Of a DNA stretch of 64,000 nt, positions 107 through 53,617 are shown piece after piece (the first letter of the stretch is position 1; every line of letters starts with the position of its first letter). Source of the stretch: Acidimicrobium ferrooxidans (GTDB taxonomy: Bacteria > Actinomycetota > Geothermincolia > Fen-727 > Anoxymicrobiaceae); assembly GCA_020723485.1 (NCBI GenBank), contig DYIU01000002.1, forward strand, positions 839,190 through 903,189, written 5' to 3'. Under the pieces are notes generated by a model that was not told the DNA's origin, made no database searches, and saw only the letters and a program-made list of their open reading frames with translations. A program made the position numbers and the translations under genes.

Positions 107-562
107 GTGACAGCCAAGAGAATCGCGTCCCTCGTTATCTGTATGGCGGTCGTCGCGTCGCTCGCGGCTTCGCTCGCCGGCTGCGGCTCCACCGCCTCGG
201 ATGACAAGGGCGAGGGGGCGGAACCATCCTGGGTTCAGACCGAGCTCTTCTTCGGAAGGAGCATCCCGGCCGGGGGCGAGGTCACCGAGGAAGCTTTCCA
301 GCAGTTCCTCGAGGAGGTCGTCACGAAGGAGTTCCCGGCGGGACTGACCGTTTGCGACGCCTACGGACAGCAGCAGGACGAGGGCGCCCCGATAACGAAG
401 CAGAAGACCAAGGTTGTGCTGCTTGTCCACCAGAAGACCGAGTCCAACGAGGACGCCGTCGAGCGCGTAATAGCGGCCTACCGGCAGCGCTTCGGCAAAC
501 CGCAGGTCATGCATACCGAGCAGGCCGTCGAGCCGGAGTTCTTCGCGGGCGGCGTGGATTGA
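107..562 (+). CDS. DUF3574-family lipoprotein
   Basis: A 151-residue secreted protein with a GTG start preceded by a purine-rich RBS (AGAAAGGA). Residues 1-26 form a lipoprotein signal ending in the lipobox LAGC, so the mature protein should be membrane-anchored outside the cytoplasm. The remainder (WVQTELFFGRS..., FPAGLTVCDAYGQ, VVLLVH, then a helix with AYRQRFGKPQV) matches the layout I know for DUF3574, a small ferredoxin-like fold of unknown function. The 5' leader carries an imperfect hairpin at 62-82. Nothing in the sequence gives a biochemical role; the next gene is also a lipoprotein. Confidence 0.8.
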   Translation: MTAKRIASLVICMAVVASLAASLAGCGSTASDDKGEGAEPSWVQTELFFGRSIPAGGEVTEEAFQQFLEEVVTKEFPAGLTVCDAYGQQQDEGAPITKQKTKVVLLVHQKTESNEDAVERVIAAYRQRFGKPQVMHTEQAVEPEFFAGGVD

Positions 563-644
563 CGGGGCGGCGCGACCGCCCGTGAGCCTGGAGCAAAGGC
601 CCGACAGGCATTACTGGGGAGGCCGGGGGGCCGCCGGCGTATAG

Positions 645-1490
645 ATGACCATGCACATAGAGCACAAGAAGAGCGCCTGCCTTATACTGGCTGTCCTGCT
701 CCTGGCTCTCCTCGCCATGGGCGGCTGCGGAGGCGGCTCGGGCGGCGGGGCGGCATCGGCTCCCGGAACCCGGCCTTCATCTCCGTCGGCGCAGGGCGGC
801 GAGCGGTTCAGCTTCATCGTCTGTGGTGACCCGCAGAACAACTACGAGGTCTTCGACAGGGTGCTCGAGGCGGCTAAGTCGGTGGACTTCCTCATCATCG
901 CGGGAGACCTCACGGGGAGCGGGACCGCGACGGAGTTCCAGAGCTTCGTGAACGCCATTGATGCGAGCGGGGTCAAGTACTACGCGGTGCCCGGCAACCA
1001 CGACGTGGCTGCATCACCCGTTGACGGCAACTACGCCACGTACGTCGGAGCGCCCCACAGCTCGTTCAGCTACAAGAACGCGCACTTCATCCTGATCGAT
1101 AACAGCACGCCCGAGCTCGGTTTCTATCCAGCGGAGCGGGCATGGGCGCGCAGGGACCTCGACGCCGCGCGCAAGAAGGGATACGAGCATCTTATCGCCG
1201 TGGCGCACGTGCCCCCAGGCTACCCTTACTCGGCGTCGGCCACTGCCGACCAGATAACGGGGCTCGACGCCAACCACGAGCTGATACCGGTGCTTTCCGA
1301 GGGCGGCGTGAAGAACCTGTTCTGCGGACACCTCCACACGTACATGGAGGAGAGGGACGACGGGGTCACCGTCACCATCACCGGCGGCGCGGGCGCCCCG
1401 CTGCACTACATCGGCGGGGACGCCTACTACCACTATGTCCTCGTCGAGGTCGATGGTGACAGGCTCACCCGGAAAGCGGTTAGAATATAG
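645..1490 (+). CDS. Calcineurin-like metallophosphoesterase, lipoprotein
   Basis: A 281-residue protein with a lipoprotein-type signal (hydrophobic LILAVLLLALLAMG followed by GC) and a Gly/Ser-rich spacer. The metallophosphoesterase motifs occur in order: GDPQ, GDLTG, GNHD (about residue 120), AHVP and GHLH (about residue 225). These residues bind the two metals in the calcineurin-like superfamily. It probably hydrolyses a phosphoester at the outer membrane face; the substrate cannot be deduced. The ATG at 651 is an alternative start. It belongs with the flanking small genes on the plus strand. Confidence 0.85.
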   Translation: MTMHIEHKKSACLILAVLLLALLAMGGCGGGSGGGAASAPGTRPSSPSAQGGERFSFIVCGDPQNNYEVFDRVLEAAKSVDFLIIAGDLTGSGTATEFQSFVNAIDASGVKYYAVPGNHDVAASPVDGNYATYVGAPHSSFSYKNAHFILIDNSTPELGFYPAERAWARRDLDAARKKGYEHLIAVAHVPPGYPYSASATADQITGLDANHELIPVLSEGGVKNLFCGHLHTYMEERDDGVTVTITGGAGAPLHYIGGDAYYHYVLVEVDGDRLTRKAVRI

Positions 1491-1531
1491 CGGTAAGAGG
1501 CGCGGAGACGCCCCGGCCCGACAGGAGGTAC

Positions 1532-1918
1532 ATGGCAGGCACGGGCAAACAGAAGGAGATAATAGTCCTCCTCGAGGAGGTGTTCGGCACCCATCCGGGC
1601 TCCGAGCTGGGGAAGCCCCTCAAGGAGGGCGCCTGCATTCAGGGGCAGGTCGAAGGGGAGGATTACAGCCTGGTCAAGAAGGGCGGCGTCCTGGTCGTCT
1701 CGCGGGGCACCGTGCCGAATCCGGATATCACCGTTGAGCTCAACCGGGCCGCCTGCGAATATATCGCAGGGGCGAAAGAGCTGCCCGAGTTCATAGAACG
1801 CGCACGGGAGTGTATCCGCGGCGAGAAAAAGGGCTGCTTGTTCACCTACTGCTACGACGCGAGCTTCCCGCGGCTTATGATGAAGGGCTACATGGACTTC
1901 GCCCGCGCGTTCATTTAG
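1532..1918 (+). CDS. SCP2-like small protein
   Basis: A 128-residue cytoplasmic protein with a strong RBS (AGGAGGT, 4 nt before the ATG). The pattern G-E-DYSLVKKGGVLVV..PNPDITVELN..ACEYIAGAKEL, with a C-terminal LMMKGYMDFAR, resembles SCP2/sterol-carrier-like lipid-binding domains, which use a similar 'PDxTV' strand and a C-terminal hydrophobic helix. The lipid-binding role is inference. The stop codon TAG is the first three bases of the palindromic element that follows. Confidence 0.55.
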   Translation: MAGTGKQKEIIVLLEEVFGTHPGSELGKPLKEGACIQGQVEGEDYSLVKKGGVLVVSRGTVPNPDITVELNRAACEYIAGAKELPEFIERARECIRGEKKGCLFTYCYDASFPRLMMKGYMDFARAFI

Positions 1919-2036
1919 GGTCAGACCACTTTCGTTCCATTAGAAACACCAGCATCATCAGCAACGCGCGCTACGCCGCAGGGATGTTCGTAATGTTGTT
2001 AGTGTTGCTTATGGAACGAAAGTGGTCTGACCCCTA
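1916..2036. repeat. Palindromic REP-like element, copy 1
   Basis: Two perfect 21-bp inverted arms (1918-1938 and 2013-2033) begin with GGGTCAGACC and enclose about 75 bp of lower-GC DNA. Outside the arms sit TAG on the left and CTA on the right, which are the stop codons of the two convergent genes on either side. The transcript would fold into one long hairpin and could act as a bidirectional terminator or mRNA stabiliser. The same arm core recurs at about 6.5, 10.2, 27.7, 35.7 and 62.0 kb. Confidence 0.85.
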
Positions 2037-4826
2037 CTGGGCGAGCTGGTCAAGTATCTCCTTGAGCTGGTTCAGGTAAGTGCCGTACGCGGCCCAGTCC
2101 CCCGCCTTCTGAGCGTCCACCGCCTTGTTGTAGAGGTCGAGCGCCTGCTTGCCCAGGTCGGTCGACGGCGCGGGCTGCTCGGCAGGCGTCGTGGGCGCCA
2201 CGGGCGTCGCCGGCGCCCCGGCGAAGATGCGCGCCACCGCCCCCTCGAGGGTAGGCTCCATCGCCACCTGGTCGCCGTACACGACCACCACCCTCTTCAC
2301 CTGCGGTATCTTTATCTGGGTCGCCTGAAGGTACAGCGGCTCCACGTATATGAGGGAGTCCTCGATAGGTATGACCAGGAGGTTCCCCCTTATGACCTGG
2401 GAGCCTGCCTGCCGCCACAGTGACAGCTGCCTGCTTATCTCCGGGTCCTGCTCGATGCGGCCTTCCACCTGTTCGGGCCCGTAGACCAGCTTGCCCGATG
2501 GGAAGACGAAGTTGATGAGCTCCCCGTAGTGGCCGGGGTCCATGCGCGCGCCCAGCCAGGCGATCATGTTCTGCTTGTTGTTCGGGGTGAACGGAAGGAG
2601 TAAGACCATCTCCTCGCGGGCTTCCCCGGGGATCTTCATGATGATGTAGTAAGGCGTCATCGGGAGGGCCTGGCCGTCCAGGGACTCCTTCGGGAACGCC
2701 CACTCGTCTTCCTTGTTGTAGAACTGGTCGGGGTTGGTCATGTGGAACGTGCGCAGGATGTTCGACTGGGCCAGGAACAGGTCCTCCGGGTAGCGGACGT
2801 GCCTGACGAGGTCGGCGGGCATCTTGTCGAGCGACGTGAATATCTGCGGGAATATCTTGCGGTAAGTCTGGATGACCGGGTCCCTGGGGTCGAAGACGTA
2901 GAGCTTCACCGTACCGTTATACGCGTCGATGACCGCCTTGACCGAGTTGCGCACGTAGTTGCCGATGCCCGAGGTCGGGACCGAGTAAGGGAACTTGTCG
3001 GTCGTCGCGTAGCAGTCGGCTACCCAGTAGAGCTTGCCGTCTTCCGAGAGCACCATGTAGGGGTCGGCGTCGAACTTGAGGAACGGGGCGCACTTGGCCA
3101 GCCGCTCCCTGATGTCGCGGTTGTACATCACCAGTGAGTCGTCGCGCACCTGGGCGCTGAACAGCAGGTTGACGTCGCGGAACCGTATGGAGAACAGCAG
3201 CTTGCGCCAGAACGAGTTGACCTTGACGCCGCCGGTGCCCTTGTAGACCTGGTGGACCTCCTTGTCCTTGGCCGGGTAATTGAACTCGGGCTCGGTGGTG
3301 CGCGTGACCACGTAGCTCTTCTGCAGCTCGCCGAAGTAGACCTCAGGCCTCGTGTTCTGCAGGTTTGTCGGCCCGGTTGGCGGGATATCGCTCAAGAGGA
3401 AGTTGGGGTTGCCCTCGGCGGTGACATCGTTGGTCGGGCTCATCACGGCCCCGAAGCCGTGTGTGTAGACCAGTGTCTTGTTGACCCAGGTCTGGGCAGA
3501 GGCCGGCAGGTTGGACTGGAGCATCTCCCTGGGCGCGATGTTCATCTGGCGGAAGTCGCCGTCGACGACATAGCGATCGACCCCTATGTCGTTGAACCGG
3601 TAGTACTGCCTGATGGACTGCAGCTGCTCGTAGGCGTCGAGCGCCGGGCGCGGGTCCCACAGCCTCACGTTCCGGAGCGTGGCGCGGTTGCGCACGATGG
3701 AGGCCAGGTCGAGGTTCTGCTCCGCGGGAAACGGGGTCGACTGCACCTTTTCGATGTCGTAGGCGTCACGGGTGAACTCGATCTCGCGCGCTATGTACTC
3801 TCTCTCCCTGGCACGCTCGGACGGCTTGACCACGTAGTTCTGCACTACGAGCGGGATTATTGTGCCGGCAACGAGCGCGACCACCACAAGAGACCCCACC
3901 GCAATGGCCGGCAGGAGCCAGCCCTTGCGCCAGATGTTGATGACGAGGATGGCCGCCGCGGCGATGGCGAGCCCCAGCATCACCCAGAGCGCGGGGACGC
4001 GCACGTTGGCGTCGGTATAACCGATGCCCTGGACAACGCCACGCTTGCTGAACAGGAGCTCGTACATGTTCAGCCTGTAGGACCAAGCCTTGACCAGGAA
4101 TACAGCCGCGAGGAGCAGTGAAAGGTGCGCCTTCACGTTCGGGGCGAACATATCGGGCCCGCGCCGCAGGCGGATGCCTCCGTCGAGCACGTATACCACG
4201 GCCACCGCTATGAAGACGAAGATGAGGGTACCCAGCAGCCAATCGACCAGCGCGCGCTGGAACGGGTAGGAGAACACATAGAAGCCTATGTCCTTGCCGA
4301 AGACCGGGTCGGTCCTGCCGAACGAGCTGTGATTGAGGAACTTCAAGAGGAGGTCCCATTTGCCTGCCCAGCCGAGCCCGGCGAAGAACGCCGCGACCAG
4401 CGCGAATATGAGGATGCCCCATCCAACCACGCGTTTCCACACGACGCGGGCCTTACCCACGAACTCCTCCAGGGGCGAGCCGGCCGCGTCGATCTGCTGG
4501 GGCGGCGGTATCTTCCGGGCGAGCCACAGGTTCCCGAAAAGAATCCCGAAGAAGAGCGCGCCGAATACGACCACCATCAGTATCTTCGCCACAAACGTCT
4601 TCCAGAAGAGGTTCTGGAAACCAATGTGGTTGTACCACAGGGCGTCCGTGTAGAACATCGCGAACGGGGTGATCACCGCGAAGAAGACGATGACGAGCAG
4701 CAGCACCACGAGTATTGCCACGCGCCGCTTGGTAAAGCCCGCCTTGATGCTGCTCTTGAGGTCGCCCACCTTGACCTTCTTGAGCCTGCTGGTGAGGTCC
4801 TCTATGTTGCCTGGTCCGGACGGCAT
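2034..4826 (-). CDS. UPF0182 (COG1615) integral membrane protein
   Basis: A 930-residue protein, the usual length for UPF0182, which is common in Actinobacteria and cyanobacteria and has no assigned function. About seven hydrophobic helices occupy residues 30-330, starting at RRVAILVVLLLVIVFFAV. A large polar domain (about 340-870) follows, with family-like blocks such as RNATLRNVRLWDPRP and YNRDIRERL. A Pro/Ala linker then leads to a C-terminal helical tail (KQALDLYNKAVDAQKAGDW) resembling a TPR-like helical pair. It lies 12 nt downstream of the sirtuin gene and is probably co-transcribed with it. Its stop codon abuts element copy 1. Confidence 0.9.
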   Translation of the reverse strand: MPSGPGNIEDLTSRLKKVKVGDLKSSIKAGFTKRRVAILVVLLLVIVFFAVITPFAMFYTDALWYNHIGFQNLFWKTFVAKILMVVVFGALFFGILFGNLWLARKIPPPQQIDAAGSPLEEFVGKARVVWKRVVGWGILIFALVAAFFAGLGWAGKWDLLLKFLNHSSFGRTDPVFGKDIGFYVFSYPFQRALVDWLLGTLIFVFIAVAVVYVLDGGIRLRRGPDMFAPNVKAHLSLLLAAVFLVKAWSYRLNMYELLFSKRGVVQGIGYTDANVRVPALWVMLGLAIAAAAILVINIWRKGWLLPAIAVGSLVVVALVAGTIIPLVVQNYVVKPSERAREREYIAREIEFTRDAYDIEKVQSTPFPAEQNLDLASIVRNRATLRNVRLWDPRPALDAYEQLQSIRQYYRFNDIGVDRYVVDGDFRQMNIAPREMLQSNLPASAQTWVNKTLVYTHGFGAVMSPTNDVTAEGNPNFLLSDIPPTGPTNLQNTRPEVYFGELQKSYVVTRTTEPEFNYPAKDKEVHQVYKGTGGVKVNSFWRKLLFSIRFRDVNLLFSAQVRDDSLVMYNRDIRERLAKCAPFLKFDADPYMVLSEDGKLYWVADCYATTDKFPYSVPTSGIGNYVRNSVKAVIDAYNGTVKLYVFDPRDPVIQTYRKIFPQIFTSLDKMPADLVRHVRYPEDLFLAQSNILRTFHMTNPDQFYNKEDEWAFPKESLDGQALPMTPYYIIMKIPGEAREEMVLLLPFTPNNKQNMIAWLGARMDPGHYGELINFVFPSGKLVYGPEQVEGRIEQDPEISRQLSLWRQAGSQVIRGNLLVIPIEDSLIYVEPLYLQATQIKIPQVKRVVVVYGDQVAMEPTLEGAVARIFAGAPATPVAPTTPAEQPAPSTDLGKQALDLYNKAVDAQKAGDWAAYGTYLNQLKEILDQLAQ

Positions 4827-40851: not shown

Positions 40852-43332
40852 TCAGGGAGGTATGGCCTCCTTGTAGACGTTGATGCTCGTCGCGTACAGG
40901 TACGGGCCGAGCAGGCCGTTGTCCTGCCGCGTCTTCATCGTGACCCACCTGAGCGGGTCGTTCGGGTTGTTGGCCATCTGGGCGACTATGAAGTTGACGG
41001 CGTTTTCGTCGTTCAGCGCGATCATTAGCTGCCTGGCCATCGCCTGCGCTCCGGGAGTGTCCAGCGCCTGCGTGATGTTGTACGTTGCCGCCGGGTTGGC
41101 GTTGAGGTCGGCGATGACCGTGTTCAGGAAGGCACGGCCGTTCGCGCTGTTGAGAACGCTGGCCGTAGCGGCCGGGTCCATCCCGCCGAGTATCTCCCCG
41201 AGGAACGCGCCGTTGTTGTTGAGCAGGGCCGCGACCACGTGTGGGTCCAGCCCGCCCAGGGCGACCGGCCTTACCAGGTCGTACAGCGCCCCCCTGGGGC
41301 CGCCGGGGTCGTAGCTGCGCAGCGTCGTGTTGCGCATCGCCTGGTTTATCACGTCAGCGTCGAGGTTGGCGATGAGGCCGCTGATGAACGGCCCGCTGTT
41401 GTTGACCACGTTCGCGAGCATGGTCGGGCTCAGGCCGGTGGGCTCCATCAGCGACTCGGTGAACCCCGGCGTGTTGTTCATGGTCTGGGCCAGCACCGCC
41501 GGGTTGAGCCCGACCGCCGGGTCGAGCATGTTGTTCAGCAGAGCCTGGTTTGCGTTGAGCGCATCTGCGAGCACGTCCGGCGCGAGCTTCCCTATGATCC
41601 CGGTCAGGAACGTGCCGTTGCTGTTGACTATGTAGGCGACGACCTCCGGGTCGAGGTACCTGATGAGCTCGCTGGAGGCCCCCATGGAGTCGTTCATCAC
41701 TCCGGCAACCACGCCGGGGTCCAGCAGCGAGACCAGGTTCGCCGCCCAAGCGGCGTTGGCATCGATCGCATCCGCCGTAGCCTGAGCGTCCAGCTTGCCC
41801 AGGAGCCCGGTCAGGAACGACTGGTTGTTATTGACGATATTCGCTATCACTCCGGCATTGAGCTTGCCGAGGAGGTTCCTGAGGAACGTGGGGTCGTCCA
41901 TCCCCTGGGCGAGCCCGGCCGGGTCCAGCTTGCCCACCAGCCTGGTGAGGAAGTCACCGTTATCGTTGACCACTCCTGCAACCACCGAAGTATCGAGGTT
42001 GGCGACCAACTCCGCGGTCCATCCCCAGGTCGAGCTCAACAGCTCGTTGAGTTTGTCAAGGTCGATGTAGGAGAGCAGGCCTTTGACGAAGCCCGGGTTC
42101 TGGTTTATCGCGTTCGCGGTCCCCGCCGTTGACAGGTTGCCCAGCAAGCCGGCCAGGAAAGCTCCGTTGGCGTTCACCGCGCCGGCTATCGGGTCCGGCG
42201 TGAGCTTGGCGACGATCCTGTTGGCCATGTCGGCGTTGTTGGCGACCGCTGCCAGGAACTCGGTGGAGAGGTGCCCCACCATGCCCGAGACGAAAGGCGA
42301 AGAGTTGTTGACCACCGAGGCCAGTGCGCCCGGGTCCAGGTAGCCTATGAGCGCCGAAGTGAAGTCAGTCGTGATGGAGACACTCGCGGCAAGCGAGGAC
42401 GGGCTGAGCTTCCCGAGGAACCTCGCGATGAAACTGGTGTTGTTGGCTATCGTAGCCACGAAGTTCGGGCTGATGTTCATCGCTACTTCATAGGTGAAGG
42501 CCTCGGTGTCCTTCATCGTCCTGGCCAGCGCGTCCGGGTCCATCGACCCGAGGAGCGCGCTCAGGAACGACTGGTTCGCGTTCACGATGCCGGCGAGGAC
42601 CCCGGTGTTCAGCTGGGGCATCAGCCTCGAGATGAGCGTCGGCCGGTCCGCGAGGCCCTTGGAGAGCGCGGCGGCGTCCAGCTTGCCCAGTAGGTTGGCC
42701 ACCCAGGGCCCGTTCGCGTTGACGACGGCGGCCAGCGCATCGGGGTTTATGAGGCCGACGAGCTTGCTGGCGAACTCGGGGTTGGCGTTGAGGGCCGAGG
42801 CGGCGACCTTGTAATCGGTCAGGCTGAGGACCTGGTTCAGGAACTGGCCGTTCTCGTTCACGGCGTTCGCAATGACCTGGGCGTCGAGCTCCGCGACCAG
42901 GTCGGAGAGGAACGGACCTATCTGGTTCACTATCGTCGCGGTGGCCTCGGGGTCCGAGTTCGCCATGACCTCGGTCAGGAACTTCTCGTTCTTGTTGACG
43001 GCGCCCGCCACCACCTTCGGGTCGATGAGGGAGACTACCTCAATCACCCACTCCGGGTTCTCGTTCACCGCGTTGGCGGTCCCGGTGGGGTCGAGCTCGC
43101 GCATGACCTCCGTGAGGAACTCCGGGTTGTCCTGGATGGCCTGGCCGACGGCCTTCGGGTCCAGCGCGCCGATGAGGCCGCTCAGGGTCTTGGCGTTGCT
43201 CAGCTTACCGATGATAGGCCCCAGGGGGCTGCGGGGAGGCACGAACGCCACCACCGCCAGGACCAGGGATCCCACCACCAGAAGTATCACTACCGCGTTT
43301 ATGATCTTCTGGAGACTCGGGTTATAGAGCAT
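40852..43332 (-). CDS. 23-residue-repeat envelope protein C
   Basis: 826 residues. An N-terminal membrane helix (IINAVVILLVVGSLVLAVVAFV) is followed by the conserved block PPRSPLGPIIGKLSN. From residue 57 to about 740 I count about 29 tandem units of 23 residues with the pattern LDPxVVAxAVNxN, then xxFLTxLLGx; a few units are 22 long or carry insertions (near DPGGPRGALYDLVR). A short C-terminal region ends ATSINVYKEAIPP. Each unit should form a helix-turn-helix or an Asn-stabilised solenoid turn, giving a very long rod outside the membrane. No enzyme motif. It starts 39 nt after the second paralogue ends. Family not recognised. Confidence 0.85.
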   Translation of the reverse strand: MLYNPSLQKIINAVVILLVVGSLVLAVVAFVPPRSPLGPIIGKLSNAKTLSGLIGALDPKAVGQAIQDNPEFLTEVMRELDPTGTANAVNENPEWVIEVVSLIDPKVVAGAVNKNEKFLTEVMANSDPEATATIVNQIGPFLSDLVAELDAQVIANAVNENGQFLNQVLSLTDYKVAASALNANPEFASKLVGLINPDALAAVVNANGPWVANLLGKLDAAALSKGLADRPTLISRLMPQLNTGVLAGIVNANQSFLSALLGSMDPDALARTMKDTEAFTYEVAMNISPNFVATIANNTSFIARFLGKLSPSSLAASVSITTDFTSALIGYLDPGALASVVNNSSPFVSGMVGHLSTEFLAAVANNADMANRIVAKLTPDPIAGAVNANGAFLAGLLGNLSTAGTANAINQNPGFVKGLLSYIDLDKLNELLSSTWGWTAELVANLDTSVVAGVVNDNGDFLTRLVGKLDPAGLAQGMDDPTFLRNLLGKLNAGVIANIVNNNQSFLTGLLGKLDAQATADAIDANAAWAANLVSLLDPGVVAGVMNDSMGASSELIRYLDPEVVAYIVNSNGTFLTGIIGKLAPDVLADALNANQALLNNMLDPAVGLNPAVLAQTMNNTPGFTESLMEPTGLSPTMLANVVNNSGPFISGLIANLDADVINQAMRNTTLRSYDPGGPRGALYDLVRPVALGGLDPHVVAALLNNNGAFLGEILGGMDPAATASVLNSANGRAFLNTVIADLNANPAATYNITQALDTPGAQAMARQLMIALNDENAVNFIVAQMANNPNDPLRWVTMKTRQDNGLLGPYLYATSINVYKEAIPP

Positions 43333-43371
43333 CTTTCCGTCTCCCGCCTTTCGTATACTCCCGTGTTCTCG

Positions 43372-45954
43372 CTACCATGGAGGAAGCGGCTCGTCGATAG
43401 TCGAGTTCCTTCTCGCGTCGTGGAACTGCACGTTCGCGTTGAGTGCAATACCCCCGATGAGTCCCTGCACCATGTCGATCAACCACTGCGGGACGGCGGG
43501 GTCGTGATACTCGATGGCGACTATCTTGGTTGCCCCGTACATCATCACGTTTCGCAGCACGTTCTGGTTTGGAGCCCACCCGGTTCCGGTGCGCGGATTC
43601 GTTCCTGCGTGCGCCACGGGGCCGGCGATGGCATTCACGATGACGTCGGGGCTCAGGCCGCTCATGAGTCCCCTTATCATGTTCCCGGTGTTCACGAGCA
43701 GCGTCCGAGTGCCGGTCGGGCTCATGCTGGCCATGACCCCCGAGACCAGTTCCCGGGTTTCACTGTTACTCAGGATGGGTACCAGGATGTCCGTGTCGAT
43801 CCCCGCCGGGGCCGGCGCGAGCAGCGCCTCGGTCATTTCCGGGTGCGCGCTCATGGCGTCGGCAATCACGCCGCCGTCGAGCAGGCCCACCAGCTGGTTG
43901 GCCATGTTCTGGACGCCCGGAGAGTTGTTGACGATGTCCGCGATGTCAGTAGTGTTCGTGTAGGTGAGCATCTCCTGCAGGAACGCCCCGTTCTGGTTGA
44001 CAGCCGAGGCGACCACGCCGGGGTCCAGCACCGCCAGCAGGTTTGAGATGAACGCACCGTTGTTGTTGAGGAGCCCCGCGACGACGGCGGGGTCGAGGCC
44101 GTCGGAGAGCAGCCTCTCGGTGAAGTTCGCGCCCTGCGGGCTGTTCATTGGAGTGACCAGGCTCTGTATGGCACCGGTGTCGTTCCCTATCTGTGTGAGA
44201 AGGTTCCTGATAAACGTCCCGTTCGCGTTGACGGCGTTGCCCAGCACCTGGGTGTCCAGCTGGGGGAGCAGCGCAGTCAGGAAGTTGCGGCCCTGCACGG
44301 TGTTGAGAGCGCTCGCGGTCACCTGCGGATTCAGGTTGTTCATCAGTCCGGTCAGGAAGTCCCGGTTGTTGTTGACCACCCCGGAGATGACGCCGGCATC
44401 CAGGAGGCCGATGAGGTCGCTTGTCAGCTGCGGGTTGGCGTTCATCGCGTTCGCGAGGACTGTTGTGTTCAGCTTTCCGACAAGGCCGGTGAGGAAAGCG
44501 CCGTTGGCGTTGACCGCGCCGGCGACCACCGTCGTGTTCAGGTACTGCATGAGCTCCTTGGTCATGTCCGGGTTGTCATTGAGAGCGGCCGCAACGACCG
44601 CCGGGTCGAGCTTGCTCAACAGGGCCGCCAGGAACGCCCCGTTCTGGTTGACCGCCCAGGCCGTGTTCGCCGGGTTCATGGCGACCTGCAGCTGGGCCAC
44701 CCAGTCGGTGTTGTTGTTCACTATCCCGGCAATCACCTGGGGGTCGAGCTTCCCGATGAGCGTGGCCATCATGCCGCTGTTCGCGTTGAGGGCCCCCGCG
44801 AGCGACACCGGGTTGAGCTTGGCTATGACGTTGGTGAGGAACGCCTCGTTCTTCACGATGTTGGCTATGACCTCGGGGTCGGTGTTGTTCGTGAGCGTCA
44901 CTACGAACGGGATGTTGCTGTTAAGCACGCTCGCGATGACCGACGGGTCGAGCCCGTTCAACAGCCCGCTGGTGAAGCCGCCGATCTGGTTCACCAGCCC
45001 CGCGATCGACGCGGGCGACAGCTTCCCGATGAGCCGCGCCGTCATCGCCTGGTTGTCGGTGACCGCCTTAAGCACCTGGGGAGAGAGCCCCGCAAGCAGC
45101 CCGGCCACCATGTTGCCACTCTGGTTGACGACTCCCGCTATCACCGTAGGGCTGAGCATGCCGATCAACCTCGTGGTGAACGTCGGGTCCTGGTTGAGCG
45201 CGCGCGCCAGCATGCTCGGGCTGAGCTTGCCCACCAGGCTCGAGAGGAAAGGCCCGCTGCTGTTGAGGATGCTCGCGAGCACCCCGAGGTTGATGAAATC
45301 TATCGCCCTCGCGGTCACGTCGGCGTTTGCGTTCAGGGCGTTCGCAACTACGTCCGGGCTCAGCAGGCCCACCAGCTGCGTGACGAACGACTCGTTGGCG
45401 CTGACCGCGTCCGCCAGGACCTTCGGGTCGAGAAGGGCGGTCACCTTGTTCGTGAAGTCCATGCTGGTCTTCATGGTGTCAGCGACAGCCTGCGGGTCCA
45501 TTTCCCCGATGAGCTCGGAGAGCCACTTGCCGTTTGCGTTGACCGCGTCGGCGACCACCTGCGGCTCCAGGTAAACTGTGACCTCGACCACGACGTCCTG
45601 CACCCCGGCGTCACTGGTTGCCGCGGCCATGACCGCGGGGTCGAGATAGGAGATGAGCTCGGTGAGGAACTCGCCGTTTGCGTTGACCGCGTCGGCGATG
45701 ACCTCGGGCTCGATGTCCGCCAGCAGCTTGGACATCATCGTCGGGTCCGCGTTCAGGGCGGCTGCCAGGACCTTGGGGTCGAGGCCTGAGATCATGCCCG
45801 TGAGCAGCCCCTTCTGGCTGGCGACCTTGCCCAGGAGAACCCCTATCGGGCTCTTGGCAGGGATCACCATCGTTATGCCCAGGATGAAAGTAGCCAGCAG
45901 CAGCAGCACGACCGCTATATTTACTACTCCCTGTACTCCCCGCGATAGTAACAT
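43372..45954 (-). CDS. 23-residue-repeat envelope protein B
   Basis: 860 residues. Membrane helix (VNIAVVLLLLATFILGITMVI), then AKSPIGVLLGKVASQKGLLTG, then about 28 repeats from residue 58, e.g. LDPAVVAGLLNNNGAFIS and LDPKVLADAVSANESFVT. Repeats are interrupted near residue 590 by an insertion (IGNDTGAIQSLVTPMNS). The C-terminal domain (about 780-860) has a PQWLIDMVQGLIGG helix and a possible strand ALNANVQFHDAR; the first paralogue has a similar PQWIKAV segment. Asn at repeat positions 11 and 13 and aliphatic residues at fixed spacing define the fold. The gap to each neighbour is under 40 nt, so this is one operon. Confidence 0.85.
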   Translation of the reverse strand: MLLSRGVQGVVNIAVVLLLLATFILGITMVIPAKSPIGVLLGKVASQKGLLTGMISGLDPKVLAAALNADPTMMSKLLADIEPEVIADAVNANGEFLTELISYLDPAVMAAATSDAGVQDVVVEVTVYLEPQVVADAVNANGKWLSELIGEMDPQAVADTMKTSMDFTNKVTALLDPKVLADAVSANESFVTQLVGLLSPDVVANALNANADVTARAIDFINLGVLASILNSSGPFLSSLVGKLSPSMLARALNQDPTFTTRLIGMLSPTVIAGVVNQSGNMVAGLLAGLSPQVLKAVTDNQAMTARLIGKLSPASIAGLVNQIGGFTSGLLNGLDPSVIASVLNSNIPFVVTLTNNTDPEVIANIVKNEAFLTNVIAKLNPVSLAGALNANSGMMATLIGKLDPQVIAGIVNNNTDWVAQLQVAMNPANTAWAVNQNGAFLAALLSKLDPAVVAAALNDNPDMTKELMQYLNTTVVAGAVNANGAFLTGLVGKLNTTVLANAMNANPQLTSDLIGLLDAGVISGVVNNNRDFLTGLMNNLNPQVTASALNTVQGRNFLTALLPQLDTQVLGNAVNANGTFIRNLLTQIGNDTGAIQSLVTPMNSPQGANFTERLLSDGLDPAVVAGLLNNNGAFISNLLAVLDPGVVASAVNQNGAFLQEMLTYTNTTDIADIVNNSPGVQNMANQLVGLLDGGVIADAMSAHPEMTEALLAPAPAGIDTDILVPILSNSETRELVSGVMASMSPTGTRTLLVNTGNMIRGLMSGLSPDVIVNAIAGPVAHAGTNPRTGTGWAPNQNVLRNVMMYGATKIVAIEYHDPAVPQWLIDMVQGLIGGIALNANVQFHDARRNSTIDEPLPPW

Positions 45955-45990
45955 CCTAACTAAGCCTCCAGTCCAAAGAGCCCTTATTCC

Positions 45991-48807
45991 TCAGTCGTCG
46001 TAGCCCGGGTAATCCATCGCTCCCTCTACCATGTCCCTGACCCAGAGGTCGGCAACCGCCTTTATCCACTGAGGCCACCCGAACAGCCCCAGCAGCGGGA
46101 CCCTGGCCCACACCCTCACCCTTATCTTCAACTTGGCAAAGATGTTGGCGTCACCCAACTGCACGCTCTCGGTGAGGACGCCCGGGTTGAGCATGCCCAG
46201 CAGGTCTCCCATCATGTTGGGGTTCGCGTTCAGCGCGGTGGATATGATAGACGGGTCGACGTAGGAGAGCATCTGCCCCGTCGCCGCCGGGTTCGCGTTC
46301 ATGGCGGTGGCCAGCACCGCAGGGTCGAGGCCGCCCGGTGAGGTGATGAGCTGCAGGATGAGCCCGCCGGGGACCCCTGAGACGTTTGGTGTGTTCACCA
46401 GGTCCGCTATGACCGTCGGGTCGGTGCCGCCGATGAAGTCCGCGAGGAACGCCTCGTTGGAGTTGACCGCGTCCGCGATCGCCTGCAGCGCCCCGGGTGT
46501 CGTGCCTATCGCCCCCATGACCCGCGCCAGGAAATCGTTGTTGCCCTGCGCGAGGTGGACGCGGTGCATCATCTCGGCCATGCCCTGCGCGTCCAGGTTC
46601 GCCACCAGCAGGCTGACGAAGTCCGGGTTTGCCTCTAGCGCGGTGGCCACTATGTTCTCGTCGAGGTTCTGGAGCAGCCCCTCCAGGAACGCCGGGTTGT
46701 TGTTGACGGCGCCCCCGATTACCTCCTCGTCGAGGTAGGTCATGAGCTGCGTGACGAAAGCCGGGCTCTTCTTGGTGGCCTCCTTGACCACCGCGGGATT
46801 GAGCCCCGCAATGAGGTCGGTCACGAACTGCTCGTTGGCGTTCAATATGCCCCCGACGGTGGCCGGCGAAAGGTAGTTCAAGAGGTCAACGGTCATCTGC
46901 GGGTTGCTGTTGACCGCGGTCGCCACCACCGAGGCGTTGAGGTTTCCGACCAGGTTTCGCAGGAACGTCCCGTTGCCGTTGACCACGTTGGCGACGACCG
47001 AGGGGTCCGTCTCTCCCATGACCGCGGTCAGGAACGGCCCGTTGTTGTTGAGCACGCCGGCAAGCGCGGTGGGGCTCAACTTGCCCAACAGCCCGGTGAG
47101 GAAAGGCCCGTTGGCGTTGACTATCTTTGCCGTTACCTGCGGGTCCATCTTGCCCAGCAGCTGATTGATGAGAGAGCCGCTGTCGTTCACCACGCCGGCA
47201 ATGACGTCGGGGCTCAGGTTACCGATGAGGTCCTTTGCGGCCTGCGGCGCCGAATCGAGCGCCGCGGCGAGCACCTGCGGATTGAGCTTCTTGATGAGGG
47301 CGTCCAGGAACGCCTGGTTCGAGTTGACGATGCCGGAGACGATCGACGGGTCGGCCGCGGTGAGCACCTTGCTGAGGAACGCCTGGTTGTTTGCGACGGA
47401 CGCGATGAGGTCGGGCGACACGCCGCCCACGACGTCCGCCAGGAACTGCTTGTGGGCGTCCATGGTCTTCGTCATCTCGGCCGGGTCCAGGTTCTGGACC
47501 AGCGCGATGAGGAACGAGCCGTTGGCGTTGAGCGCCCCGGCCACGGCGGCGGGATTGATGGCCCCGACCACCCTGAGCATGAAGCCCTGGTTATTGATTA
47601 TGTCAGCCACGACAGTCGGATCCATGGAGTTCAGCAGCTTGGGCACGAACGATGCGTTCGCGTTGACGACCCCCGCGAGTACGTTAGGGTTGAGGCTGCC
47701 GAGAAGCCTGGCCAGCCAAGCCCCGTTGCTGTTCACGGCCAGTGCCAGCGGCTCGGGCTTGGTGTTCCTCATCATGGCCATGATGAACGCTTCATTGGAG
47801 TTCACCGCGTTCGCTATGACCCCGGTGTCGAGCCTGCCGAGCACCGCGCCGAGGAAAGCGCCGTTGTCATTCACTATCTTCGCCGTGTTCGCCGGGTCCA
47901 TCAGGCCCATGACGGCGGTAAGGAAAGGCCCGTTGTTGTTTACGGCATCCGCGATTACCACAGGCGACAGGAACGAGATGAGGCTCGTCACGAAGGCGCC
48001 GTTCTCGTTCAGGATGGTCGCGATGACCTGCGGGTCGAGGTACTGCATCAGGTCTGCGGTCAGCTCGGAGTTGGCCTTGACGACCCTGGCGAGCATCTCC
48101 GGGTCGAGGTACTTGATGAGCCCACTGACGGTCTTGCCGCTCTCGTTGAGGATGCGGGCCAGCACCTTCGGCTCGAGCATCCCGATGAGCTTGACGCTCA
48201 TCTCCGGGTTCTTGTTGACGGCGACCGCCACCACCTGCGGAGGCAGGGCAGCCATCGTCTCCGTGACGAACTGGGGGTTCTCGTTGATGGCCTGGGCGAC
48301 CGCCTTTGGGTCAGTGTTCTTTAGCATGCCCTCCAGGATGTACTTCTGGTTGGCGAGCGTTCCGACCACCTTGCCCACCGGCGTCTTGTTCGGCATCGCC
48401 ATGAGGCCGCCCACAATGAGCGTGACGAGCAGCAGCACAATGACCGTCGCGTTCACCAGTGCCTGCAGCCTGGAGTTCAACAGGAGGCTCCCGCCGGCCG
48501 CGGTCTTCGCGGCGCGCGCGCTCTTCCGCGGCGGCCCCGCCGCCGCGGCTCCCGCCGCGGCTGCAGCCACTGGAGCCGCGCCCATGCCGGCGGACAGGAC
48601 CCTCTGCCGGTACGCCTGCCGGGCCTCAGGGCTCATCGCCAGTTGCTGGGCGCTCTCGACCTTCAGGGCCGTCTTGAGGAACGGCTCCAGCTCATCTCGG
48701 ATGTCCGGGTGCTTGTTAAGGACATCCTCGAGCTTGCCCGGGTCCTTTCGGACAACCTCGAGCAACCTGTCGAAAAGGTTACCTGAATCTTCATTCAAGC
48801 TAACCAC
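45991..48807 (-). CDS. 23-residue-repeat envelope protein A with DUF5667-like N-terminus
   Basis: 938 residues, GTG start. Residues 1-75 form a helical cytoplasmic segment (DRLLEVVRKDPGKLEDVL, HPDIRDELEPFLKTALKV, MSPEARQAYRQRVLSAG) resembling the DUF5667-type domains found beside ECF sigma factors. An Ala-rich linker, one membrane helix (about 116-137) and the shared block NKTPVGKVVGTLANQKYILEG follow. About 30 repeats of 23 residues then run from 165 to 880. The C-terminus is a basic-aromatic segment (LKIRVRVWARVP, WPQWIKAVADLW). First of three paralogues, 126 nt after the sigma-factor gene. A role as sigma regulator with a large exterior sensor or scaffold is inference. Confidence 0.85.
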   Translation of the reverse strand: MVSLNEDSGNLFDRLLEVVRKDPGKLEDVLNKHPDIRDELEPFLKTALKVESAQQLAMSPEARQAYRQRVLSAGMGAAPVAAAAAGAAAAGPPRKSARAAKTAAGGSLLLNSRLQALVNATVIVLLLVTLIVGGLMAMPNKTPVGKVVGTLANQKYILEGMLKNTDPKAVAQAINENPQFVTETMAALPPQVVAVAVNKNPEMSVKLIGMLEPKVLARILNESGKTVSGLIKYLDPEMLARVVKANSELTADLMQYLDPQVIATILNENGAFVTSLISFLSPVVIADAVNNNGPFLTAVMGLMDPANTAKIVNDNGAFLGAVLGRLDTGVIANAVNSNEAFIMAMMRNTKPEPLALAVNSNGAWLARLLGSLNPNVLAGVVNANASFVPKLLNSMDPTVVADIINNQGFMLRVVGAINPAAVAGALNANGSFLIALVQNLDPAEMTKTMDAHKQFLADVVGGVSPDLIASVANNQAFLSKVLTAADPSIVSGIVNSNQAFLDALIKKLNPQVLAAALDSAPQAAKDLIGNLSPDVIAGVVNDSGSLINQLLGKMDPQVTAKIVNANGPFLTGLLGKLSPTALAGVLNNNGPFLTAVMGETDPSVVANVVNGNGTFLRNLVGNLNASVVATAVNSNPQMTVDLLNYLSPATVGGILNANEQFVTDLIAGLNPAVVKEATKKSPAFVTQLMTYLDEEVIGGAVNNNPAFLEGLLQNLDENIVATALEANPDFVSLLVANLDAQGMAEMMHRVHLAQGNNDFLARVMGAIGTTPGALQAIADAVNSNEAFLADFIGGTDPTVIADLVNTPNVSGVPGGLILQLITSPGGLDPAVLATAMNANPAATGQMLSYVDPSIISTALNANPNMMGDLLGMLNPGVLTESVQLGDANIFAKLKIRVRVWARVPLLGLFGWPQWIKAVADLWVRDMVEGAMDYPGYDD

Positions 48808-48933
48808 TTCCCACCTTCCATTTTAAGAACATCACGACACTAGGATTTCCCGATATTCTAAACGCTTTCTCTCCCGCAAAGATACGGGTCGAGGGCGAAG
48901 CAAGCGAGAAAGTGAAAGGGCTACCGGACCCGA

Positions 48934-49512
48934 TTATGAGGATTCCGCGTAATCGGGCCCGCTCGAGTTGCCGAGGATCCGGTTGAGGGAGAGAAGCCCG
49001 CGCTTCTGGGTGGACTTTACCGCCCCGACCGAAATCCCCATGATCTCCGCCACCTGGCCGTTCGAGAGGTTGTCGATGAACTTGAGCACCAGCACCTCTC
49101 GCTGGTTGTGGGTGAGCTTCTGCATCGCCCCGTACAGCCGTTCGCTCTCCATGTCCGCCATCACCGTCTCAACGGGATTGCCCCTGGTGGACGCCGCCGG
49201 GGGCTGCTCCTCCATCGGCACGTTCTCCCGCTTTGATTCCCTGCGGAAGTAGTCGACCACAAGGTTGTGCGCGATACGATACAGCCATGAGCTGAATGCC
49301 ACGTCTCGCAGCTCGTACGAATCGAGGTTTTCGAAGGCCTTGAGGAATGTCTGGCCGGTGAGGTCCTGCGCTTCAGTGAAATTCCCGACCTTGTAATAGA
49401 TGTAACGGAAGATCTGGTCCACGTACTCGTCGTACAGTTGCCCGAAAGCGTCAGGGTCGCGGCCCCCCTTGGCCTTCTTGACCAGAGTTCTGATGCCGGC
49501 CTCGCTAGCCAC
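48934..49512 (-). CDS. RNA polymerase ECF-type sigma factor
   Basis: 192 residues, GTG start. Region 2: FGQLYDEYVDQIFRYIYYKVGN, then AQDLTGQTFLKAFEN and WLYRIAHNLVVDYFRR. Region 4: LTHNQREVLVLKFIDNLSNGQVAEIMGISVGAVKSTQKRGL, with a helix-turn-helix. There is no sigma region 1.1 or 3. It is first in the order sigma, repeat proteins A-B-C, zinc-finger protein, so it probably controls that operon or is controlled by protein A. The 126-nt gap to gene A shows no certain ECF promoter. Confidence 0.93.
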   Translation of the reverse strand: MASEAGIRTLVKKAKGGRDPDAFGQLYDEYVDQIFRYIYYKVGNFTEAQDLTGQTFLKAFENLDSYELRDVAFSSWLYRIAHNLVVDYFRRESKRENVPMEEQPPAASTRGNPVETVMADMESERLYGAMQKLTHNQREVLVLKFIDNLSNGQVAEIMGISVGAVKSTQKRGLLSLNRILGNSSGPDYAESS

Positions 49513-49784
49513 TGACGTACTCCCGTCTTCCAGTTCTGCTCAAAGGACGGGTACCCCCTCTGGTGAGAAAAAGGGGTCAGTCAACCCACTCCCAGCTCCA
49601 CCAGTGCCTATAGTTATCTAAAGTTAAGAACCGTTAACTTCAGTTTACTACATTTTCGACATTTTTCCAGATTTTGATAACTCTGTCAAAGGATGTCGCG
49701 AGGTGATTATACCCGGTTGTCAGAAAAATGATACCTACTTCCGTTAAAAATCACTCATATGGTTGTCCTTTTCAGTGGGTCGGT
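49513..49784. other. AT-rich divergent intergenic region (sigma factor / Tad locus)
   Basis: About 270 bp with no gene. The centre (49610-49740) is much richer in A+T than the surroundings and contains TTAAC/GTTAA inverted motifs (AAGTTAAGAACCGTTAACTT). A lone GGGGTCAG at 49573-49580 is probably not a full REP-like element. Likely regulatory DNA for both directions. Confidence 0.5.
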
Positions 49785-49825
49785 TTGACCACCGGCAACA
49801 GCCGTGCTAGGATTTGCTTGTACTG
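49785..49825 (+). promoter_or_regulatory. Sigma-70-type promoter with downstream TTGCTTGTACTG block, Tad promoter 1
   Basis: TTGACC (49785-49790), a 17-bp spacer, then an extended -10 TGC TAGGAT (49808-49813). Immediately after it comes TTGCTTGTACTG (49814-49825), which spans the expected start of transcription. The same block follows the -10 of two other Tad promoters. Confidence 0.8.
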
Positions 49826-49893
49826 CTGGTCTTCGCAGGAGACCTCGGCCCTACAGGCCGGGGAGTTACAGGAATCCACTCGATTTGAGCTCA

Positions 49894-50679
49894 ATGTCTT
49901 CCATAGCCGCCGCGGGGACAGGGGCGCGACGAAGGCCGCCCGTCATCGGGAACTCCGCACGCTGCACTGTGTTTCACGGTGCGGCGGGCGGGGTCGGGGC
50001 GACCTTCCTCGCGTCGGAATCTGTCGCGATGCTCTCGTCCGCGGGCCACCGGGTAGCGGTCGTGGATGCTCACGCTTCGAGGGGAGCCATGCACTACCGC
50101 CTCGATGTCCCGCTCGGCAGGGGCGTTTTCACCATCCAGGACCTGGTACCGGTCCTCGGCGACATGGACGAAAGGATGGTCGACAACGTCCTTACGGCCT
50201 GCCCATGCGGCGCCCGCATGGTGCTTTCCGGGACCGGTGGCGTGGACGAAGCCGCCCTGGCCCCGGAGCAGGTCCACCAGGTGACGGCAGTCCTGAGACA
50301 CAGGTTCGATCACGTCGTGGTGGACACCAGGCCGACAGGAGAAGGCACTGCCATCGCCGGCGCGTGCCGGGACGTCACGGTTGTGCTGGTCGTCATACCG
50401 GAACTCACATGCCTCGGGGGGGCGAGGCGCGCGCTGGATTCCCTCGCCGGGCTCGGGTTCGAACGTGCCGACGTGAAGCTCGTGGTCAACCGCTCTCTCG
50501 GCAGAAGGGACGCCCTGACCCTGCCTGACATCGAATCCTGCCTGGGAGTTCCCGCGGCCGCCCTCCTGCCCGAGGAGACCGCGACCTGTCGACGCGCCGC
50601 GCTCGAGGGAGCCTTCGTCCACTCGGGAAGGTCGGAGCTCGGCAGGGACCTGCGGGCCATGGTGAACCTTCTCTTCTGA
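49894..50679 (+). CDS. CpaE/TadZ-like P-loop ATPase
   Basis: About 261 residues. The ATG at 49894 is chosen because the longer frame begins before the predicted transcription start. A MinD/ParA-like fold: deviant Walker A HGAAGGVGATFLASE, VAVVDAHASRGAMHYRL, HVVVDTRP, VVIPEL, LVVNR. The usual Walker lysine (GKT) is replaced by GAT, as in some TadZ proteins, so ATP hydrolysis may be lost. It probably positions the Tad pilus machine at the membrane. There is no N-terminal receiver domain. Confidence 0.82.
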   Translation: MSSIAAAGTGARRRPPVIGNSARCTVFHGAAGGVGATFLASESVAMLSSAGHRVAVVDAHASRGAMHYRLDVPLGRGVFTIQDLVPVLGDMDERMVDNVLTACPCGARMVLSGTGGVDEAALAPEQVHQVTAVLRHRFDHVVVDTRPTGEGTAIAGACRDVTVVLVVIPELTCLGGARRALDSLAGLGFERADVKLVVNRSLGRRDALTLPDIESCLGVPAAALLPEETATCRRAALEGAFVHSGRSELGRDLRAMVNLLF

Positions 50680-50755
50680 CTCGAGGCGGCCCACGGCCCG
50701 GTTCGCCCGCCGTGCCGGCCCCGGGCTTCGTCCGTTCCAACGACCGCGCCTCTGA

Positions 50756-50796
50756 TTGACAGCCGCTCCCGCATATCATAAAATCTGCTTGTATTG
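50756..50796 (+). promoter_or_regulatory. Sigma-70-type promoter with CTGCTTGTATTG block, Tad promoter 2
   Basis: TTGACA (50756-50761), a 17-bp spacer, TAAAAT (50779-50784), then CTGCTTGTATTG (50785-50796). It lies between the CpaE-like gene and tadA, so tadA-tadB-tadC can be expressed independently. Its presence rules out the longer tadA frame starting at 50756. Confidence 0.8.
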
Positions 50797-50830
50797 CTTA
50801 TCCGGCTCTCCTCGTGACGAAAGGCCTCCG

Positions 50831-51981
<1,151 letters not shown>

Positions 51982-51985
<4 letters not shown>

Positions 51986-52731
51986 GGTGGATCGCCGTCG
52001 CCCTCTGTGGGGCCGCCTCGCTGTATTTCCTGCTGCGCCGGGGCCGGGCGCGCTCCCGCGCCTCGGCGAAGCGGTCCCTGAAGAGACACATACCCGGCGA
52101 CGCATTCACCCAGGGTGCCGGCAGCCGCTTCGCTCGGATCTCCGCCCGGCTCGCGGCGGCCGCCGGTGAGTTCAGGACCCTCTCGGGACGGCAAGCCAGG
52201 TCCGGGCAGTGTGATCTCCTGGTAGCGAGCCTCACCACATACATGCAGTGCGGTGTCCCGTTCGAGGAGGCTCTCTCACTCTGTGTCCAGGACCTGCTGC
52301 CCCCGGTGCGCGAACACCTTCTGCGCTTCTCGAGCCAGCTCGAGCTCGGCGCAGATGTGCCGCATGCCCTGGCTGAGCTCGTTCGCGCTCTCGACAGCCG
52401 CGACTTCGAGCTGGTCGCTATGGCCGCCGTGACTTCCCGGGAAACCGGCTCCGACATAAGGTCGGTCATGAGGGCCCTCGGCGAAGCAGCCCGGGAGCGC
52501 GCGGCCATCCGGCGCGAGCTCGACACCCAGACGATTCAGGGCAGGCTCTCGGGACGTATCGTGGCAGGGTTGCCTCTCATATTCCTGTCTCTCTCGTGTG
52601 CTGTCTCGCGCGGTACCCTGTCCGTCCTCTTCGGCAGCCCCGCCGGTATCCTGATGCTGGCCGCGGCCGGCGTGCTCAACCTCTTCGGATTCCTCTGGAT
52701 AAGAAAGATACTCGACGTCGAGACCTGGTGA
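51982..52731 (+). CDS. tadB: Tad pilus inner-membrane protein TadB
   Basis: 249 residues, GTG start. One N-terminal helix, then the T2SF/GspF-type domain (SLTTYMQCGVPFEEALSLC, SRDFELVAMAAVTSRETGSDI) and two C-terminal helices (GLPLIFLSLSCAVS, ILMLAAAGVLNLFGFLWI). Slightly shorter than typical TadB. With TadC it forms the membrane platform on which TadA acts. Confidence 0.85.
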
Positions 52732-52744
52732 CCCGGGAGGCGAA

Positions 52745-53617
52745 GTGCTCTTCACGGTAGCGACCGCGTTCCTTGCGCTTTACTTCCTGGCCAGGGGAGC
52801 GGGCCCTGGCGCAGGCGAGGAGCCGCTGTCGAGGCTGCGTCGTCTCGACGGGAGGTCCTCGCAGGTGAGTACCCGCAGAGCCAGCCGCAGGACAGGGCTG
52901 GCTGCTGCTCTGCTGGAAATGCCGCGCCGCATCGCCCCGCCTCCTCTCCGGCGCCTGATGGAATCCGGCCTGGCCGACATCGAACCGCTCTCCGGGCTCA
53001 CACTGGAGCGCATGGTAGGCATGCGCGCCTGGGCTTCGGCAGGGCTGCCCGTCGTGGTCATCGTCTCGCTCGGCTTCTCCCGTCTCTCAGCTGCGCTGGC
53101 CTTCCCTCTTTCAGCAGTCGGGTTCATGCTCCCGGTGATGCTTGCTTCCAGGCGCCGGAAGGCATACCTCGGTTCCGTGCTCGCGGACCTCCCATATGCA
53201 GCCGACCTGCTCTTCGCGCACGTCCTGGGGGGCAAGAACCTGGACCAGGCGTTCCGGGGCGCGGCGAAGATGTGCCCTGGAGCGCTGGGGGAACTGCTCA
53301 CCCGGGCTGTCAGGGAGATGGACCTCGGTGCGGGGCGCGACGAGGCTTTCGCCGAACTTACGGGCCGGTGCCCCGTCGGCGAGCTCTCCTCTCTTCTGCG
53401 CTCGCTCCTCGAGTCGGAGCGCCGCGGCCACGAACTCTCCGAGACCCTCGGCGTCTTCTCTCGGGAGATGAGGCTGAGGCGCCGGGACGAGGTGAGGACC
53501 AAGGTGGCCAAAGCGCCTCTGCAGATGCTGGCGCCCCTGGTGTTCCTGATACTCCCGGCGTCAGTGCTGTTGACAGTCGGGCCCACGTTCCTGGTGACCT
53601 TGAGGAACATCGTCTGA
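52745..53617 (+). CDS. tadC: Tad pilus inner-membrane protein TadC
   Basis: 290 residues, GTG start. Helices at about 95-140, and a T2SF domain with LADLPYAADLLFAHVLGGKNLDQAFR and LLESERRGHELSETLGVFSREMRLRRRDEV, followed by PLQMLAPLVFLILPASVLLTVGP. This conserved end is the TadC signature. It is 13 nt after tadB. No further Tad gene follows until 57.5 kb. Confidence 0.87.
   Translation: MLFTVATAFLALYFLARGAGPGAGEEPLSRLRRLDGRSSQVSTRRASRRTGLAAALLEMPRRIAPPPLRRLMESGLADIEPLSGLTLERMVGMRAWASAGLPVVVIVSLGFSRLSAALAFPLSAVGFMLPVMLASRRRKAYLGSVLADLPYAADLLFAHVLGGKNLDQAFRGAAKMCPGALGELLTRAVREMDLGAGRDEAFAELTGRCPVGELSSLLRSLLESERRGHELSETLGVFSREMRLRRRDEVRTKVAKAPLQMLAPLVFLILPASVLLTVGPTFLVTLRNIV

Follow-up and report, generated by a model that had tools for sequence, protein, structure and literature searches.

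In Streptomyces, the ECF sigma factor BldN works with a class III membrane anti-sigma factor, RsbN, and governs surface-sheath proteins. As for protein architecture, the HEAT/ARM alpha-solenoids, importins and CAND1 among them, stack helix pairs in units of about 40 residues, and MgtE_N and the FliG middle domain are cytoplasmic modules of about 100 aa whose short helices are opened by Leu-x-Pro turns. How does the present locus compare? We analysed a window of 64,000 nt (contig DYIU01000002.1, assembly GCA_020723485.1) in which an ECF sigma factor gene precedes three consecutive genes for giant repeat proteins, here called A, B and C (Table 1).

The three ORFs (938, 860 and 826 aa) lie in tandem on the minus strand, exactly where the original prediction had placed them. 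The 23-residue period that it had read from the translations is borne out far above shuffled sequences: self-identity at lag 23 is 0.234, 0.199 and 0.195 for A, B and C and is high at lags 46 and 69 as well, while the shuffles never exceed 0.128 at any lag. Strict segmentation with an iterated PSSM recovered 27, 24 and 23 clear units (74 together), spaced by 23 residues in nearly all cases, with several 22-residue units and a few insertions. An earlier count of about 88 units is nevertheless fair, because degenerate units occupy the gaps of 45–46 residues and the structural model of B contains 61 helices, or some 30 pairs. The consensus derived from the 74 clear units by an iterated position matrix reads LDPxVVAxAVNxN-GxFLTxLLGx, with Ala7 present in 85%, Asn11 in 81%, Pro3 in 74%, Leu1 and Asn13 in 70% each, and Phe16 in 64% of units; the conserved asparagines at positions 11 and 13 had likewise been recognized beforehand. 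Asp-Pro would open the first helix of a unit and Asn-Gly/Pro the second, which suggests that much of the asparagine conservation stems from helix capping and not from a binding ladder. That the three proteins might serve as rods of three different lengths was probably not the point, since each comprises about 30 units; their main difference is one of identity.

Table 1. Features of the locus and its relatives (window positions, unless a locus is named)
Feature	Position	Strand	Description and basis
Gene A	45991..48807	-	938 aa, GTG start; helical domain, membrane helix, ~30-unit solenoid, C-terminal beta-hairpin; ORF, AF2 model m7d407c06e368
A residues 7-74, N-terminal helical domain, candidate anti-sigma	48586..48789	-	Four AF2 helices, pLDDT ~70 for residues 10-50; aligned in 7 genomes
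A residues 112-136, predicted membrane helix	48400..48474	-	Hydropathy, AF2 helix
A residues 144-883, predicted alpha-solenoid of 23-residue repeats	46159..48378	-	27 clear units; paired AF2 helices
A residues 894-922, C-terminal beta-hairpin, low confidence	46042..46128	-	AF2 strands 894-903 and 913-922, pLDDT ~30-45
Gene B	43372..45954	-	860 aa; membrane helix, ~30-unit solenoid; ORF, AF2 model m3dc161f4fe67, 14 orthologues aligned
B residues 37-777, predicted cap helices and solenoid	43624..45846	-	24 clear units; AF2 helices
Gene C	40852..43332	-	826 aa; membrane helix, ~30-unit solenoid; ORF, 23 clear units, hydropathy
ECF sigma factor gene	48934..49512	-	192 aa; Sigma70_r2 and r4_2 above cut-off; best PDB match 6dxo_A (sigma-BldN); adjoins A in 9 genomes
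Putative ECF-type promoter of A-B-C, GTATC-N16-CGTTTA	48859..48885	-	Sigma-A gap; 9/9 genomes, same spacing
Sigma upstream region, TA-rich promoter-like stretch and repeated TTAAC ~10 bp apart	49590..49660	-	Visible in several orthologues
B-box-type zinc-finger protein, C-terminal membrane helices	39045..40709	-	Cys/His motif; sub-threshold zf-B_box/ANCHR matches
Tad/Flp pilus genes, divergent: CpaE-like ATPase, TadA (T2SSE), TadB and TadC (T2SSF)	49804..53617	+	Pfam
Short relative	L030 7800-8708	+	
Short relative	L031 7974-8831	-	
Short relative	L032 6774-7175	-	
Short relative	L033 7078-7557	+	
Short relative	L034 7004-7330	+	

AF2 models of A and B show paired helices of about 10 residues, some 30 pairs per protein, that together make up a thin alpha-solenoid. 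Mean pLDDT is 67 for A and 68 for B (alignments of seven sequences), and in B residues ~380–700 mostly reach 75–91; the helix count given above excludes the first cap helices of that protein. At this moderate confidence, the models of A and B support the regular solenoid that had been proposed. A strand–hydrophobic loop–strand pattern resembling the hairpin of A is visible by eye in orthologues and in short relatives. As claimed, each protein carries a single predicted membrane helix, but the N-terminal position assigned to it does not apply to A, where the helix is predicted behind a separate helical domain. The charges flanking the helix in B and C are only weakly diagnostic of topology. The repeat proteins are acidic (pI 4.05–4.8) and contain 0–2 cysteines, as would be expected outside the membrane. 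Omp85 is absent, so the cell is probably monoderm; the same absence rules against an outer-membrane explanation.

Relatives occur in 30 of the 31 genomes of the deep-branching actinobacterial class, including that of the window, the sole exception being 62% complete, and in none of 28 genomes from other classes (P0002). A profile search of 297 genomes of the phylum matched 25, all of them in the class Candidatus Geothermincolia, and none of the other 272; Candidatus Geothermincola primus is among the records carrying relatives. None were found on plasmids, phages or viral contigs, nor outside the phylum in a non-exhaustive scan of genome contigs with two short patterns. Many MAG contigs end within repeat genes (loci L112–L117 and L120–L126), and the family is thus likely under-counted and fragmented in databases. 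In locus L035 (G005:C14, 6532–9088, minus strand), gene C is divided between two ORFs of 428 and 419 aa, reflecting a frameshift or an assembly fault.

Every sufficiently intact locus contains three consecutive genes. In a tree of 38 proteins, these fall into three ancient paralogue lineages, each spanning the class. In families f5 and f6, the first gene groups with window B (support 99/94), the second gene with C (96/92) and the third with A (96/91). Gene order is hence circularly permuted between families (A-B-C versus B-C-A), which argues for three distinct, jointly required partners. Single units share a mean identity of 0.52–0.70 with their positional counterparts in other genomes, as compared to 0.29–0.33 with other units; this position-by-position conservation implies that the number and identity of units, and hence the length of the proteins, are fixed. 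A second, shorter trio (462, 479 and 452 aa; 12 units each) was observed in locus L119 (G018:C155, 3061–8012, plus strand) with a different ECF sigma gene 5′ of it, and the arrangement of a sigma factor with a solenoid trio has thus originated, or been duplicated, repeatedly.

The sigma factor of the window consists of Sigma70 regions 2 and 4 alone (60.0 and 47.1 bits), which places it among ECF sigma factors. Our genome survey supports its suspected link to the trio: an ECF sigma gene lies 5′ of A at every locus of families f1–f4 with intact flanks, and precedes A throughout the window's order-level group. The best NCBIfam model for this protein, TIGR02952, scores 170.8 bits against a cut-off of 206.45, and an assignment as BldN equivalogue was rejected. 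The motif GTATC-N16-CGTTTA is found in all nine genomes, in seven as an exact match, in G004 with one mismatch and in G009 with two; two of the nine had been held out from motif derivation, and both carry the site. The GGAAC-type ECF promoter consensus is absent from every sigma-A spacer. With its CGT-type −10 element, the conserved bipartite site has the features by which a putative ECF-dependent operon is recognized. In the genomes of G003, G005, G006 and G010, the exact site is unique, and the window genome holds three as compared to one for the control. A wider sigma regulon was dismissed, as the exact motif occurs 0–3 times per genome, which is about control level apart from the trio. Together, the rarity of the motif and its conservation in the sigma-A gap support a narrow, self-contained circuit. 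The TTAAC repeats 5′ of the sigma gene itself look operator-like.

What might control this sigma factor? The gene directly downstream of it is A, whose helical domain of about 75 aa lies before the membrane helix. A helical, predicted cytoplasmic domain, one membrane helix and a gene beside that of the sigma factor correspond to the architecture of a membrane anti-sigma factor, and the N-terminal domain of A may serve as such. Nine loci have both this domain and the adjacent sigma gene, and the long-trio loci of families f5–f7 have neither, although this co-occurrence could stem from a single evolutionary event. In the outer families f5 and f6, the trio is retained without sigma gene or domain, from which it follows that the circuit is not essential to the role of the solenoids. 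The domain has no significant similarity to any Pfam family. Homology to RsbN found no support, with an HHalign probability of 0.1 against one Streptomyces-like RsbN and no match to 6dxo. In locus L048 (G004:C273), the domain forms a separate ORF (194–505, plus strand) between the sigma gene and A (506–3070, plus strand); a single in-frame stop codon separates it from A, either through genuine fission of the gene or through an error in the sequence.

We tentatively favour a reading in which A, B and C form a class-specific envelope scaffold or spacer of three partners and fixed length, supplied in the window lineage through a sigma/anti-sigma loop; we consider this plausible, if short of probable. 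Each protein would be anchored by one helix in the cytoplasmic membrane and project its thin, fixed-length solenoid of about 30 two-helix units to the outside, where the terminal beta-hairpin may dock onto a partner. As obligate partners of one envelope structure, the three would assemble into a hetero-complex and bridge the thick monoderm wall as a scaffold or spacer. In the window lineage, the adjacent sigma factor would transcribe A-B-C from the GTATC-N16-CGTTTA promoter. The cytoplasmic domain of A could bind this sigma factor and release it upon a change in how the solenoids are assembled, thereby closing the circuit. Solenoids typically rise by about 1 nm per helix pair. Thirty units would accordingly reach at most ~30 nm, similar to the thickness of a monoderm wall, and superhelical twist would shorten this span. 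More doubtful is the stronger version, a three-component spacer of a new solenoid repeat that spans the wall throughout the class, with one component reporting assembly or strain to a dedicated sigma factor that has no other promoter than the one driving this structure—in other words, an envelope scaffold that measures itself.

The neighbourhood of the trio invites other readings. Tad genes lie divergently upstream of sigma-A-B-C in the window and in G006 and G010. Family f5 has a single giant solenoid gene of 1261–1532 aa with a B-box neighbour, and in G029 this gene (1261 aa) sits beside Tad genes, too. The solenoids might hence be Tad/Flp pilus accessories, forming a guide or collar through the monoderm wall and so doing the job that a secretin does in diderms, with which the absence of Omp85 is also in keeping. 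We nonetheless regard this as unlikely: neighbourhood alone is a weak argument, the short relatives show no link to Tad, and the neighbours of the f5/f6 trio are different ones, namely MurA, an S8 protease and an ABC transporter. Further genes recur around the solenoid loci. A B-box gene adjoins them in several families of the class; in the window, where it lies downstream of the trio, its product is a Pro-rich bacterial membrane protein with what seems to be a eukaryote-like zinc finger, and in f5 the gene is followed by a STAS-domain gene (L113, 4033–4383). Frequent neighbours are large secreted proteins with TIG, Big_7 or propeller domains, or an S8 protease with DUF5719; secreted DUF5719 proteins, combined with an S8 subtilase or with TIG, recur beside different members of the solenoid family (L042 and L044, both S8 proteins, and L070, 7028–8605, minus strand).

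The window genome further encodes five short relatives (302, 285, 133, 159 and 108 aa) that lack a membrane helix and probably reside in the cytosol, a point against the envelope reading. In several genomes, the relative of ~300 aa is embedded among genes for an acyl-CoA synthetase, a PlsC-type acyltransferase, a DUF6612 lipoprotein and phasin-like proteins. This lipid-metabolic context, together with a weak whole-protein resemblance to the XPC-binding domain and its hydrophobic groove, would fit a family that binds lipids or other hydrophobic ligands in the groove of the solenoid, the anchored trio passing or storing envelope lipid. Like A, B and C, XPC-binding/STI1-type domains have short helices with Asn-Pro-type starts; however, that family has no 23-residue array, its Pfam matches are sub-threshold, and no individual stretch is significant. 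Other short relatives adjoin DNA-repair-like or unrelated genes, and a lipid-related function seems improbable to us.

Where, then, did the repeat come from? The expectation that it matches no known repeat family was confirmed: there is no accepted match in Pfam or NCBIfam, and the strong HMM match that would have spoken otherwise was not found. In Pfam and NCBIfam, TPR, HEAT, ARM, Sel1, PPR, ankyrin, LRR and TALE gave no match to A–C at E ≤ 1 and none to 14 orthologues of B at E ≤ 0.01. PDB sequence searches with the solenoid proteins yielded no accepted match. The S-layer SLH domain is not matched in A–C, and the two SLH matches of the window genome share one ORF on contig C11. With the models of A and B, Foldseek retrieved HEAT-type solenoids by local similarity (E ~1e-6) at a global TM-score of 0.12–0.22; HEAT/ARM membership was rejected on account of this poor global superposition (TMq ≤ 0.22) and of the missing Pfam matches. 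A viral fold library returned generic helical repeats alone. Matches to XopAD/skwp, PRK11475, HTH_69 and XPC-binding are whole-protein sums, below cut-off or with no significant stretch, and were attributed to repeat or composition effects. By profile, the nearest resemblance is to MgtE_N/FliG, which we take as a lead and not as membership. HHalign scores of 26–30 for MgtE_N exceed those of column-shuffled (10–20) and reversed (14–18) controls, the summed MgtE_N (PF03448) score passes its cut-off of 25.9 bits in two giant single-gene relatives only (37.4 and 42.3 bits), and FliG is weakly top in a PDB profile search (E 0.08). The repeat might thus be a highly diverged expansion of such a short-helix superhelix, an origin compatible with any of the functional readings. 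Yet the HHalign probability is only 4–12%, no individual stretch is significant, as Pfam membership would demand, and the summed scores of HTH_69 and XPC-binding are similar, all of which renders this derivation rather unlikely. An adhesin with rapidly evolving repeats, or a surface array subject to phase variation, is more improbable still. Such a reading would accord with the repeats, the inferred surface location and the secreted Ig/propeller neighbours, and is disfavoured by units conserved by position across families, a nearly constant length and three stable paralogue lineages.

We return to the envelope scaffold of three partners. A family with no accepted Pfam or NCBIfam entry that is near-universal in one uncultured class and found in none of the genomes sampled outside it is a candidate for a signature envelope structure. 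If true, a one-promoter sigma circuit in which a giant structural protein carries the candidate anti-sigma domain would constitute an unusually simple system for studying how cells sense that a surface structure is assembled. The predictions on promoter, domain–sigma binding and topology are testable in laboratory hosts, with no need to grow the organism itself.

Alpha-solenoids and ECF/anti-sigma pairs are already known, but the repeats form a new family, and no description of these proteins emerged from literature searches for this kind of repeat or architecture. Compared to HEAT/ARM proteins, with which the models of A and B share stacked helix pairs, the present unit is far shorter, bacterial and membrane-anchored. 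The MgtE_N and FliG domains share the Leu-x-Pro helix openings with the A-B-C repeat, whereas the solenoids extend over ~700 aa and are probably extracytoplasmic. The locus as a whole is reminiscent of BldN/RsbN, in that the gene following the sigma factor encodes a protein with a helical N-terminal domain, a single membrane helix and an extracytoplasmic portion, as predicted for A. In contrast to RsbN, to which the domain of A has no detectable similarity, the extracytoplasmic part of A is predicted to be a solenoid of some 30 units. The targets differ likewise: chaplins in the case of BldN and, by prediction, the solenoid trio itself in the window lineage.
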